From Aquificota bacterium (lineage in GTDB: Bacteria; Thermosulfidibacterota; Thermosulfidibacteria; Thermosulfidibacterales; B14-G1): a DNA stretch of 15,922 nt. The position numbers and the translations under genes were made by a program. Positions within the stretch are counted from its first letter, which is position 1; each line of letters begins with the position of its first letter. This document shows, one piece after another, positions 2,488 through 6,507 of the stretch. The DNA lies in contig WFSL01000004.1 of NCBI GenBank assembly GCA_015486015.1, positions 1 through 15,922 on the forward strand. The letters run 5' to 3'. The notes under the pieces were generated by a model. The model was not told the DNA's origin, made no database searches, and was given only the letters and a program-made list of their open reading frames with translations.

Positions 2488-5271
2488 TCACTCAAACTGA
2501 TACCCCTTCTCTCCGAAAAGCCTTATGCAGGTGTCCACTACCCGGGGATCATAGAAGATGCCCTTGCCCCGGGAGATCTCTTCCAAGGCAACATCTATAC
2601 CCAAAGCTGGCCTGTAGGGGCGGTGAGAGGCCATGGCCTCCACCACATCGGCCACAGCCAGGATCCTGGCACCTAATAAAATCTCCCCATCCTTGAGTCC
2701 CTGGGGGTACCCGGATCCATCCAATCTCTCATGGTGTTGGAGCACTATCTCAGCCAAAGGCCACGGAAAGTCCACCTCTTTTAATATATCATACCCCACC
2801 TGAGGATGTGCTTTCAGCATCCCAAATTCCACATCTGTCAGGCGGCCGGGCTTGCTCAGGATCTCTGCCGGCACAGAGATCTTTCCAATGTCGTGGACCA
2901 GTCCAGCCATGTAGATTCCTCTGCACTCCTCTCTCGGGAGGCCCATTTCTTCAGCTATGACAAGAGCGAGCTGGGCCACCCGCCGCTGGTGACCTGCTGT
3001 ATAGGGATCCCTCTTTTCTATGGTGGAGGCAAAGGCATAGATGGTATGCTCCAACACAGAGTGAAGCCTGTCAATGGCCTCTTTCATCCCCTCTTCTGCC
3101 TGCTTGCGCTCGGTGATGTCCACCACATTACCCATGTCAGCAGGCCTCCCCTTATATTGAACAGCTACCACCATCATCTGGCACCAGATGACCCGTCCGT
3201 CCTTTGTAAGCCTTCGGATCTCATGCTGTCCGGGGAGAATTTTTCCCTTCATCCTCTGTGCTGTTCGCCACTTGGCAGCCTCTCTGTCCTCAGGATGAAT
3301 CAGCTCCAGATAGCTCCTCCCAATCAACTCCTCGGCGGTATAGCCGTGCATCCGGGCGAATCGCTCGTTGACAAACACATACCTGCCATCCTGATGAATA
3401 AAGACACCGGTGAGGGAACTCTCCACAAGGATCCTGTACCTCTCCTCTGAATCCTGGAGAGCCCTTTCTGCCTCTTTCCGCTTGGTGATATCGTAATAGT
3501 GCTCAATGCGCCCGCCGGTATAAAGACCCAGTTTTATAGGTTGGCTCCAGTGTTCCAGCCAGCACTCTTCTCGGCCTGGGTCTGGCAGTACGTGGCACTC
3601 AAAATTTTCAATATAGGTATTGTCATCGTAGGTAGATAGGACCCTATCTGCAAATCCATCCGGGTCTTCAAAGATGTATTTTATCTTCTCCTGGATAAGT
3701 TGCCTCTTATCCTTTCCTATAACCTCTTCCCTTTTGAGACCAAAGAATCTCTCTAAGGCCTTGTTGAGCCAGACAATCCTGAAATTAGCATCAAGGATGA
3801 ACAGGCCCACGTTGGAGCTTTCTATGACCTCATCTATCAGTGAACGGTATTTCTCTTCACTTTCGCGCAAGGCTTTCTCTGCCTGCTTTATTTCTGTGAT
3901 ATCTTTTGCTCCAGCCACCACACCTGTGATATTGCCCGCTTCATCAGTTAGTACACTGGCGTTGAAAGACATTGGAATGAGTCGTCCATCTTTGGTTTTG
4001 TAGGTAAGCTCCCAATTGCGTATGGTATCCTGTGGGCCAAGGGCTTCTTTATCCTCTGGCGCACGGAAAAAGGAAAAAAACCGATTCACTTCTTCTTCTT
4101 CTTCTTCTTCAAAAATCATGCCAACTGGCTGTCCTATGAGTTCTTCTTCTGTGTAGCCTAATAATTGACAGGTTGCCGGGTTTACAGTCTTTATCTTCGC
4201 CTCTGCGTCAACCACTATAAGGGTATCAAGGAAATTCTGTATGATAGATTCAGTATACGCTTTGGATGCCTTGAGTGCTTCCTCTGCTTGCTTGCGTTCC
4301 TCTTCCAGTTCTATGTTGTGCAGGGCAAGGGCGATGTCACTGGCAACCTCTTGGAACAAGACTTGCTCTTCCTCGTCTGCAACAAGTGTTTTGGGGATAG
4401 AAGCACTGAGCAGACCATAGACCCTTCCGCCGTGCTCCAACCGAGTGGTCAGCGCTCCTCGGCCGCTGTATTTGCCTGCCAGAGGACAATCAACACAAGC
4501 AGAGGGTGGATCTTCGGTGATCATAATGCCCGACTGAGAGAGTGCTTTCTGTCCACAATTGGGCAACTTACCACGCTTCAACTGCTCGACTAGGGGCAAA
4601 AATCCCTTACCCAGTCCGGCTTCGGCAGCCGCTATAAGCCTTCCGGACTCGTCAAATAGAGCGCACCAGGCGTTGTAATAGCCATGAGTCTCAGTGAGAT
4701 TCTCACAGGTACCTCGAAGCAATCTGTTGCGGTCCTTTTCCCTAGTGATGAGGCGATTGGTGTTGCGGATGGCGTGCAGCACAAGGTTGATATGCTCCAG
4801 CTTCTCCTTTGCTTTTTTGTGCTCGCGGATGTCCCTGGCCACGCCCACCACAGCAGCCAAGCGCCCGTCTTTCTCTCGGATGACCGATCCGTTAAACAAT
4901 ACCGGAATCCGTTCGCCCGATTTAGTCAGCAGTGTCAGCTCTACATTCCGAACCGCCCCTTCACGGAGCAACCTCACCCACCCTGTACCTTTGAAGAATT
5001 CTTCTTCTTCTTCTTCTTCTTCTTCTTCAAAGATCATGCCAACTAGCTGGCCTATGAGCTCATTTTCGGAGTAACCCAGGAGTTCAAAGGCAGCACGGTT
5101 GACTGTACGGATGGTGCCGTCAGGATTGGCCACGATGACGGCATCGAGCATGCTCTCCAAGATGCTATCCAAGTAGTGATAATGAGCCAGCAGCTCTTCC
5201 TTAGATGGGTTGCCATCACCGTAACATTCACCATGCGGCTCCATTTCCACCTCCATTCCCATACTTTTCAT
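2488..5271 (-). CDS. Multi-PAS/GAF sensor with HD-GYP phosphodiesterase domain (927 aa)
   Basis: Predicted soluble sensor that degrades cyclic-di-GMP. Domains: PAS (35-150), GAF (about 170-320, with Cys239 and the pair Cys259/Cys262), PAS (335-460), PAS (480-600), PAS (607-723), HD-GYP (735-925). The HD-GYP domain has H793-D794, H846-H847-E848 and G854-Y855-P856, all the family's key motifs. Two PAS domains carry glutamate runs of 10 (residues 82-91) and 7 (388-394) after the shared GMIF motif, encoded by pure GAA repeats. ATG 5271 directly abuts the TGA of the upstream RpoN-like gene, suggesting translational coupling. An internal ATG at 5244 (residue 10) has a better Shine-Dalgarno (GGAGGTGGAA) and may be the real start. 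The C-terminal PAS/HD-GYP DNA is duplicated at 1-701. Confidence 0.93.
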   Translation of the reverse strand: MKSMGMEVEMEPHGECYGDGNPSKEELLAHYHYLDSILESMLDAVIVANPDGTIRTVNRAAFELLGYSENELIGQLVGMIFEEEEEEEEEEFFKGTGWVRLLREGAVRNVELTLLTKSGERIPVLFNGSVIREKDGRLAAVVGVARDIREHKKAKEKLEHINLVLHAIRNTNRLITREKDRNRLLRGTCENLTETHGYYNAWCALFDESGRLIAAAEAGLGKGFLPLVEQLKRGKLPNCGQKALSQSGIMITEDPPSACVDCPLAGKYSGRGALTTRLEHGGRVYGLLSASIPKTLVADEEEQVLFQEVASDIALALHNIELEEERKQAEEALKASKAYTESIIQNFLDTLIVVDAEAKIKTVNPATCQLLGYTEEELIGQPVGMIFEEEEEEEVNRFFSFFRAPEDKEALGPQDTIRNWELTYKTKDGRLIPMSFNASVLTDEAGNITGVVAGAKDITEIKQAEKALRESEEKYRSLIDEVIESSNVGLFILDANFRIVWLNKALERFFGLKREEVIGKDKRQLIQEKIKYIFEDPDGFADRVLSTYDDNTYIENFECHVLPDPGREECWLEHWSQPIKLGLYTGGRIEHYYDITKRKEAERALQDSEERYRILVESSLTGVFIHQDGRYVFVNERFARMHGYTAEELIGRSYLELIHPEDREAAKWRTAQRMKGKILPGQHEIRRLTKDGRVIWCQMMVVAVQYKGRPADMGNVVDITERKQAEEGMKEAIDRLHSVLEHTIYAFASTIEKRDPYTAGHQRRVAQLALVIAEEMGLPREECRGIYMAGLVHDIGKISVPAEILSKPGRLTDVEFGMLKAHPQVGYDILKEVDFPWPLAEIVLQHHERLDGSGYPQGLKDGEILLGARILAVADVVEAMASHRPYRPALGIDVALEEISRGKGIFYDPRVVDTCIRLFGEKGYQFE
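2747..3447. repeat. Direct repeat copy B (PAS + HD-GYP coding)
   Basis: Partner of the repeat at 1-701, located in the last PAS domain and first part of the HD-GYP domain of the 927-residue sensor. Mosaic identity (perfect blocks interrupted by diverged patches) suggests gene conversion between the paralogs rather than a uniform ageing duplication. Confidence 0.95.
4090..4110. repeat. (TTC)7 trinucleotide run
   Basis: Seven perfect TTC units, read as seven GAA glutamate codons in the second PAS domain of the 927-residue sensor. A length change by whole units would keep the frame. Confidence 0.95.
4999..5028. repeat. (TTC)10 trinucleotide run
   Basis: Ten perfect TTC units, read as ten GAA glutamate codons at the same relative place (after GMIF) in the first PAS domain of the 927-residue sensor. 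Together with the seven-unit run it looks like a slippage-prone microsatellite. Confidence 0.95.
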
Positions 5272-6507
5272 TCACGGTCTAATCCGGTTACAAAGCGGCA
5301 GAGCACCATAAGCCATAATAAAGCACTGGCAAAGCCTCTTCTCCTCGGTCCTTGCGCCATTGGGGTTGACAACATATCTAAAAACGGCTCGATGGTCGTT
5401 GAGAAGGTCCTTCAGGTCAGTGTTCTTTGAGCCCGGGCGCAGGTGATCTGTCAGTCTTTTTCTAAGGTTCTTGGCGCTTCCAATGTAGACCACCTCGCTA
5501 GAGCATAGGGGATACCCAATTCCCATATCGACAAGGGATATCTCATATATTCCAGGAAGCTCTGGGGCATTAGCCTTTACTGAAGCCATGTTCATCGGAT
5601 AATAGAACGAGAAGCAAACCAGCTTGGGCGGATACGTACGGTGGCTATTCCTGGTGTACGACGAAGGTATCCTCAACTCTTGGCGGCACACGCTGACCGT
5701 GCGCCGTGAGATGGAGATACCGTATTGGTCTCTCAACCTTTCTTTGATCTCTTTGTCAGTGTAAGCCCTTCTGGCCCCACCTTGCCTGATAAGATCCTTC
5801 TCTTCTTCAATGATAGCTTTGATTAACCTTTTGTGAATATCACGAGTGCTGGGGAGTAGGTTGCGCACGGGGATCTCCTGGCCCTGTAGACCCATCACGC
5901 TCATGTCCCTTATGAGCCTCGATATCATGCTGCTATCAACTAATTCTATTTTGCTATTGGGTGGAAGGAAACAACCGTTGGCTTGTGACTTTTCTCTTAT
6001 CCATCTGGCCAGGGCTACCTGACTCAATGGCTTCAGGTGCCGCACGTCTCCCGAGCTTAGGTAGCTTCTCTGATGCTCAGCGATGCCCATCAGCACCATA
6101 TGGGTCAGTCTATTCCTGACATTGATATGCCACAGCTGACGCACCAGGAACTGGATATCATTCGCTACATCCTTACCAGAGAGTAGATGCCTTTGTTTCC
6201 ATCGCCTCATCTTCCCTTCGTCAATGTTATACTCCCTTGCTAACCTGACATGCCGGTAACTCATGTAAAAGCCTGCCTGGTCTCCTTGCAGCTGCCCGAT
6301 GGCGTTTGGCACCAGGTCCCCTGCACATTCTATCCCTTGAGCCCTTGGGAAGACGGTAGTAGAGATGATCTCGGGCCAGAGTTGCCTGAACATGGGGGAT
6401 GCTTCTACCCTTTCCACCATCGCCTCATACTTGGTTAAGGGCAGCGATAGGGTTCTGGCCAGGATGATGATGCCGATGAGACGAGTGCAACTGGTATCGT
6501 TGCTCAT
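5272..6507 (-). CDS. RpoN (sigma-54)-like DNA-binding protein fused to GIY-YIG nuclease domain
   Basis: A 411-residue protein. Residues 17-45 (LSLPLTKYEAMVERVEASPM) resemble the sigma-54 core-binding segment. Residues 145-165 align with the sigma-54 stretch RQRDFL..LKPLTL. Residues 191-220 (SSMISRLIRDM...VRNLLPS) align with its helix-turn-helix (ESTISRVTRNK...KYFFSS). Residues 267-276, SRRTVSVCRQ, are a diverged RpoN box (usual form ARRTVAKYRE), followed by IPSS. Residues 316-411 are a GIY-YIG domain: GIY 319-321, YIG 341-343, probable catalytic Arg351, Glu388 or Glu389, Asn407. The glutamine-rich activator-binding N-terminus of a true sigma-54 is not evident. ATG 6507 has no clear Shine-Dalgarno and is preceded by an in-frame TGA; Met30 is an alternative. 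The stop abuts the next sensor's start. Each half is recognised with good confidence. The role (regulator, selfish nuclease or both) is unknown. Confidence 0.85.
   Translation of the reverse strand: MSNDTSCTRLIGIIILARTLSLPLTKYEAMVERVEASPMFRQLWPEIISTTVFPRAQGIECAGDLVPNAIGQLQGDQAGFYMSYRHVRLAREYNIDEGKMRRWKQRHLLSGKDVANDIQFLVRQLWHINVRNRLTHMVLMGIAEHQRSYLSSGDVRHLKPLSQVALARWIREKSQANGCFLPPNSKIELVDSSMISRLIRDMSVMGLQGQEIPVRNLLPSTRDIHKRLIKAIIEEEKDLIRQGGARRAYTDKEIKERLRDQYGISISRRTVSVCRQELRIPSSYTRNSHRTYPPKLVCFSFYYPMNMASVKANAPELPGIYEISLVDMGIGYPLCSSEVVYIGSAKNLRKRLTDHLRPGSKNTDLKDLLNDHRAVFRYVVNPNGARTEEKRLCQCFIMAYGALPLCNRIRP

Follow-up and report, generated by a model that had tools for sequence, protein, structure and literature searches.

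The window analyzed here, 15,922 nucleotides of an Aquificota genome assembly (contig WFSL01000004.1), raises the question of what is done by a gene that joins a sigma-54-like DNA-binding region to a GIY-YIG nuclease domain, and of where its product would act. The original prediction placed the C-terminal half of sigma-54 at residues 145-276 and a GIY-YIG domain at residues 316-411. The first assignment held in substance: the protein matched Pfam Sigma54_DBD (PF04552) above the cut-off (Table 1) and NCBIfam TIGR02395 rpoN_sigma (residues 190-286, E 1.4e-11), although the helix-turn-helix (HTH) match starts nearer residue 190 than 145. The predicted RpoN box, a diverged SRRTVSVCRQ, is present and is followed by IPSS, as foreseen. 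RpoN similarity in residues 100-290, for which profile searches had been proposed, was also found with a profile of the fusion family, which matched solved sigma-54 chains at profile positions 90-278; the best match was 5ui5 (E 1.5e-13), isolated Aquifex sigma-54 bound to promoter DNA. Structural alignment of a model of the window protein with sigma-54 gave a Z of about 10, where the confidence of the model is moderate (mean pLDDT 50; 65-86 over most of residues 130-280 and low elsewhere). The GIY-YIG score of the window protein alone was 21.4 bits, just below the Pfam cut-off of 22.6, and its homologues scored 26.0, 25.9, 23.4, and 31.0 bits, above it. Pfam GIY-YIG was matched in all eight aligned family members, and the catalytic residues Tyr321, Tyr341, Gly343, Arg351, Glu389, and Asn407 are invariant in the family alignment A2, in agreement with the residues named at the outset. 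Models of this domain are of low confidence (pLDDT about 50 and 38), and a UvrC GIY-YIG chain was a weak Foldseek match.

The fusion is real. A sequencing or assembly error that joined two genes, which had been named as a refutation, was ruled out by the same full-length fusion in four independent assemblies, and pairwise dN/dS values of 0.23-0.42 place the gene under purifying selection. Neither the core-RNA-polymerase-binding domain (PF04963) nor the activator-interacting domain (PF00309) gave a Pfam match in the window protein or the other members scanned, which implies that the window protein is not a sigma factor; a separate, normal RpoN is encoded in the host genome. The supposition that no such system had been described was borne out by the literature searched, which contained no description of this architecture, and by a 2006 survey of the GIY-YIG superfamily, which mentions neither sigma nor RpoN. 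A separate family of sigma-54-like proteins of 360-405 amino acids without GIY-YIG [L005/L038 (G034), L063 (G741), L064 and L065 (G519), and L066 (G577)] resembles the fusion protein at the N-terminus. L063 and L064 adjoin histidine kinases and NtrC-type activators, and L065 lies near a histidine kinase. These proteins are possibly the source of the DNA-binding part of the fusion, or else alternative sigma-54 proteins.

Full-length homologues (59-65% identity) were found at three Chloroflexota MAG loci (L016, L017, and L018), with more distant homologues in other bacterial families as well as on two betaproteobacterial plasmids. A scan of 396 genomes from the class of G061 gave members in G137, G324, and G176, and a scan of 386 genomes spread over Bacteria gave G764, G497, G731, and G471 and a short member, G045. 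Plasmid-borne members are those of Sulfuricystis pSTJ2 and the conjugative Diaphorobacter plasmid pDCB1 and a divergent Arcobacter copy. Most loci come from metagenome assemblies, and the L032 homologue is cut by a contig end. Eight relatives from the same order as the window genome gave at most sigma-54-level matches and no fusion. A contaminating contig was ruled out by the NuoM protein of the window contig, which shares 89% identity with same-family genomes compared to at most 52% with nuclease-bearing Chloroflexota. Because the fusion gene is absent from the eight same-order genomes although the contig is native, it looks acquired, and its distribution is patchy and horizontally spread, with the nearest relatives in Chloroflexota and copies on plasmids too. 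A phage origin was rejected, as phage and viral collections, including viral contigs (one protein, alignment A2), gave no relatives of the fusion protein; the sole PHROGs match was a weak endonuclease match of one homologue. A known defense system was also rejected, the PADLOC matches being weak (E 0.01 or worse).

Some copies show irregularities of the reading frame. In L059 and L060, from two species of one genus, the nuclease frame is interrupted about 100-170 bp in, at a run of nine A residues, which is possibly a slippage site or a shared inactivation. In L017 (7940-8070), the conserved and open nuclease frame has no ATG, GTG, or TTG start near its N-terminus; a short open reading frame that begins with ATG ends just upstream of this N-terminus. 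In L033 (5493-6507), a nucleotidyltransferase/HEPN-like pair of genes that resembles a toxin-antitoxin module comes after the degenerate G045 nuclease, and no tract of the kind described below is present.

A search for the same architecture and its neighboring genes, as had been suggested, yielded 13 loci, each with a tract-bearing PAS sensor gene. In all 13 loci with a recognizable sigma54-DBD/GIY-YIG gene, related loci that are not statistically independent, a flanking PAS sensor gene on the same strand carries a pure, in-frame repeat tract near the nuclease. The repeat is (GAA)6-13 in 12 loci and (GTAGAA)5, at the equivalent place, in G137, and all tracts begin exactly after TTG[AC][AG]. 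They occupy two points of the PAS fold, one after PVxxIF and the other in the segment just before the terminal (V)xDITE strand. The window sensor, L061, and L062 contain two tracts each, which in L061 and L062 lie one on each side of the nuclease. Two nuclease-like genes are without a tract: that of G045, in which the sigma-54 domain is deleted, and the Arcobacter copy, with a Sigma54_DBD match below the cut-off. Neither the tract nor the sigma-54-like site that it abuts (Table 1) was part of the original prediction.

Table 1. Features of the fusion gene and the adjacent sensor gene in the window.
Feature	Position	Strand	Remarks
Sigma-54-DBD/GIY-YIG fusion gene	5272..6507	(-)	411 aa; open reading frame, domain matches, full-length homologues L016, L017, L018
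Sigma54_DBD segment, HTH (ISRL) to RpoN domain	5647..5931	(-)	residues 193-287; Pfam E 1.5e-10
RpoN box SRRTVSVCRQ	5680..5709	(-)	residues 267-276
GIY-YIG nuclease domain	5275..5562	(-)	residues 316-411; catalytic residues invariant in homologues
Adjacent sensor gene, PAS-GAF-PAS-PAS-PAS-HD	2488..5271	(-)	927 aa; ATG directly after nuclease stop codon
Tract-bearing PAS module 1	4825..5164	(-)	about 76% DNA identity to the nuclease-adjoining module of L017; homology stops at PAS end
Sigma-54-like -24/-12 site 1, TGGCATGATCTTTGAA	5026..5041	(-)	inside first PAS coding region
(GAA)10 tract 1	4999..5028	(-)	in frame (10 Glu); abuts site 1
Tract-bearing PAS module 2	3849..4287	(-)	76% identical in DNA to the PAS with a tract that lies upstream of the L061 nuclease (another family)
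Sigma-54-like -24/-12 site 2, TGGCATGATTTTTGAA	4108..4123	(-)	inside second PAS coding region
(GAA)7 tract 2	4090..4110	(-)	in frame (7 Glu); abuts site 2

The tracts follow the nuclease closely. Across 16 genomes and 3 plasmid records, 15 of 15 matches to TTGMR(GAA)4 lay beside the nuclease. In the 386 genomes, tracts in PAS genes were found in 5 of 5 genomes with an intact nuclease compared to 0 of 381 others (Fisher P 1e-11); six other genomes matched TTGMR(GAA)4 in unrelated proteins or non-coding DNA, and none of these matches was in a PAS gene. An unrelated nuclease gene could by coincidence lie near sensor genes that happen to hold poly-Glu, since these genomes are rich in PAS sensor genes and runs of poly-Glu are found elsewhere too. 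This explanation is already contradicted by the distribution (13/13 loci and the Fisher test), and the exact abutment of tract and -12 half and the codon-level conservation described below count against it as well; we give it almost no credence.

The consensus of sigma-54 promoters is TGGCACN5-7TTGCT (PMC12316311), in which the -24 element is read by the RpoN box and the -12 element by the HTH (PMC7057263). At the loci with SRR-type RpoN boxes (window, L016, L017, L018, L030, L056, and L057), the 16 bases up to and including the -12 half are TGGCA-N5-[TC]TTG[AC][AG], with the spacing of sigma-54 promoters, and no further such site was found in the sensor genes of these loci. At the loci with S[AVL]RTICNCRK boxes (L031, L032, L059, L060, and L061), the GG of the -24 half is absent and TTGCA is kept. 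A -24 TGG is present in 8 of 8 sites with SRR boxes and in 0 of 6 with S[AVL]R boxes, a correlation that comes mostly from one deep branch of the tree and whose P value overstates independence. The PAS module common to the window (tract 2) and L061, which has 76% DNA identity, reads GTTGGCATGATTTTTGAA in the window versus GTAAGCATGATATTTGCA in L061; the GG of the window site is AA in L061, whose protein has an SVRT box. The L062 protein has no RpoN box, and both of its sites are without TGG. TTGGCATGATCTTTGAA and the GG-bearing TTGGCATGATCTTTGAAGAA are candidate target sequences of the fusion protein. The -24 bases vary in step with the RpoN box among family members, so that the site would constitute a ready-made specificity code.

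These sites might instead be ordinary sigma-54 promoters located within the sensor genes, at which RNA polymerase acts with the host RpoN; the fusion protein would compete with RpoN or counteract it. The host has a normal RpoN, and the spacing is that of sigma-54 promoters. However, the tract persists at the S[AVL]R-type loci, where the -24 GG is absent, and an RpoN promoter gives no reason for the tract. Moreover, a scan of 80 genomes for TTGGCANNATYTTTGMAG, with no tract required, gave seven matches, six at nuclease-locus sites and one in dnaJ, so that PAS-gene sites among these genomes occur only beside the nuclease. We consider such promoters highly improbable.

The site is built by codon choice: synonymous randomization with the usage of each gene gave P values of 0.034 to 0.0007 per site. 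The Glu codons of the tracts are GAA in 112 of 112 cases (12 genes), and outside the tracts GAG dominates in the window and Chloroflexota SRR-type sensors. The GAA purity and the different unit in G137 point to a DNA-level process at the tract and not to selection for poly-Glu alone; amino-acid selection on its own fails to explain the 112 GAA codons or the codon-built site. These observations also bear on whether the fusion protein is a DNA-binding regulator, bound to the site within the gene, where it acts as a roadblock or autoregulator of a nuclease-sensor operon, with the GIY-YIG domain vestigial or used elsewhere and the tract a tuned protein loop. Consistent with regulation, the gene is operon-like with the sensor gene, their stop and start codons being adjacent or overlapping in several loci, and the site is near the sigma-54 consensus. 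By contrast, the invariance of the catalytic residues across very divergent homologues does not favor a regulator, and a protein-level account leaves the exclusive GAA use and the codon-level conservation of the site unexplained, so we regard this role as improbable.

Another reading, possible but rather unlikely in our judgment, is a dedicated, two-part system for repeat diversification that would be of use to the host and not primarily selfish. The nuclease would cut or nick its neighbor at the sigma-54-like site, repair would expand or contract the in-frame tract, and growth, contraction, and homogenization of the tract would tune the length of a PAS loop. In keeping with this, all resident alleles conserve the cis site, which correlates with the RpoN box; TGG is missing from the -24 halves of L062, where the RpoN box is lost; and the tracts, pure GAA or at one locus a different unit in the equivalent place, lie at two PAS points and always in frame. 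However, tract lengths vary little among relatives (11, 11, and 12; 7 and 8; 7 and 7), with a range of 6-13 units between species; the split PAS genes, plasmid copies, and patchy spread resemble those of a selfish gene; and, in a yeast study (PMC3991675), a break within a trinucleotide repeat led to contractions.

The extent of the shared DNA provided further evidence. In L016, L017, L018, and the window, similarity begins at the nuclease start and extends to where the first PAS domain ends (about 9960 in L017; slightly further in L018). Beyond this shared module the outputs differ (histidine kinase, GGDEF, kinase-receiver, and HD), and similarity to G217 ends at the equivalent point. In L031, L059, L060, and L061, the nuclease gene interrupts a PAS gene, such that the upstream gene ends with the N-terminal PAS half and the downstream gene starts with the C-terminal half and the tract. 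The joined halves gave a weak PAS_7 match across the junction (E 0.0015, below the cut-off), and the 386 genomes contained split copies only and no unsplit copy of the L031/L061-type PAS. An intron or intein carrying the nuclease was rejected: no Rfam intron was found at six loci, and stop/start overlaps at the ends of the nuclease gene in L031 and L061 leave no room for an intron. Separately, comparison of L060 (6277-7947) with L059 (5322-5351) revealed ~1.7 kb in one of these two close relatives; the junction is about 45-75 bp past the GAA tract, at the PAS linker, and marks a rearrangement point beside the proposed cut site. An orthologous TM-PAS sensor in G217 (75% identical PAS) has no nuclease upstream. 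Its allele reads PVDTIFEKEEFFRGT, with no tract and with GTGGACACAATTTTTGAA where the site would be; the -24 half is missing. As far as one allele shows, tract and site go with the nuclease.

The reading that we favor, to which we give about an even chance, is a free-standing, homing-endonuclease-like selfish nuclease that would target PAS genes via a borrowed sigma-54 domain; the tract would be a scar or a form of immunity. Two of the original suggestions, a nuclease guided to -12/-24-like DNA and a selfish gene, would then fit together, the candidate target being the site in the neighboring PAS gene. We infer binding, cleavage, homing, and a role of the tract as follows. The protein would be a site-specific endonuclease whose target reader is a sigma-54 DNA-binding domain that lost its RNA-polymerase-binding part. 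It would bind the -24/-12-like sequence within the codons of certain PAS domains, including that of its own neighbor or host gene, would cut PAS genes without the nuclease, and would be copied into them by recombination, together with the PAS module that flanks it. Breakage and repair at the site would have left the pure GAA (or GTAGAA) tract directly 3' of the -12 half as a scar, retained either because it spares the resident allele from cutting or because turnover maintains its purity.

This homing-like reading is favored by the tract in 13/13 loci, its exclusive co-occurrence with the nuclease, the codon-built site, and the site/box correlation. The state of G217 without nuclease, tract, or site, the ends of the shared module, and the split PAS genes count for it as well, as do the absence from same-order genomes, the copy on a conjugative plasmid, and the dN/dS of 0.23-0.42. 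However, in classical homing a nuclease-free allele should keep an intact site, and G217, the only such allele found, lacks the -24 half, a departure from the intact, unoccupied site expected under simple homing. The lack of any unexpanded intact site in a PAS gene among the 80 genomes likewise counts against homing. The perfect site in supposedly protected alleles suggests continuing use there, and a passive scar fails to explain the purity of the tracts despite a divergence at which synonymous change is expected. The module boundaries could result from ordinary PAS domain shuffling instead.

Free-standing GIY-YIG homing endonucleases, such as the I-TevI relatives and the Seg family of phage T4, resemble the fusion in having a separate DNA-binding part and a gene that lies beside its presumed target, outside an intron or intein, with the site hundreds of bp away (PMC2988022). 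The fusion differs from them in that its DNA reader is a sigma-54 domain and not a NUMOD or zinc finger/HTH, that it occurs in chromosomes and plasmids with no match in phage and viral collections, and that its loci have a repeat tract at the target and PAS sensors as presumed targets. MobE of phage Aeh1 is reportedly an HNH endonuclease that splits nrdA into genes-in-pieces. Like MobE, the fusion gene can lie inside a host gene and leave two open halves; unlike MobE, it encodes a GIY-YIG nuclease, its presumed target is a PAS sensor gene, and site and tract are in the downstream half. The MobE insertion is cited in PMC2988022. In diversity-generating retroelements and contingency (phase-variable) loci, a trans-acting enzyme is encoded beside its target, and a conserved cis site borders a repetitive or variable stretch. 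The fusion loci likewise pair an enzyme gene with a neighboring presumed target and a cis site bordering repeats, but no reverse transcriptase was seen there, and the repeat units are multiples of three with no on/off frameshift. With RpoN itself, the fusion shares the ELH-HTH and RpoN domain and the -24/-12 geometry of the presumed site; it differs in having no activator-interacting or core-binding Pfam match, in being fused to a nuclease, and in having its site in a coding region.

If the favored reading is true, this would be, within the searches made, the first described sigma-factor DNA-binding domain that serves a nuclease for targeting, and the likely target of this nuclease, a promoter-like site inside a signaling gene, could be read from sequence. 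The link to the GAA tract would provide a compact system in bacteria in which to study how targeted breakage creates or maintains a trinucleotide repeat, and it suggests a possible route by which PAS sensor genes get shuffled.

Two further observations concern flanking DNA. Positions 1-300 and 2747-3046 of the window form a direct repeat with 98% identity, which corresponds to the C-terminal PAS/HD part of two neighboring paralogous sensor genes; that the contig ends inside this repeat suggests recent gene conversion or duplication among the sensor genes. On plasmid pSTJ2 (L056:8812-9023), a cobalamin riboswitch lies upstream of an anaerobic ribonucleotide reductase gene.
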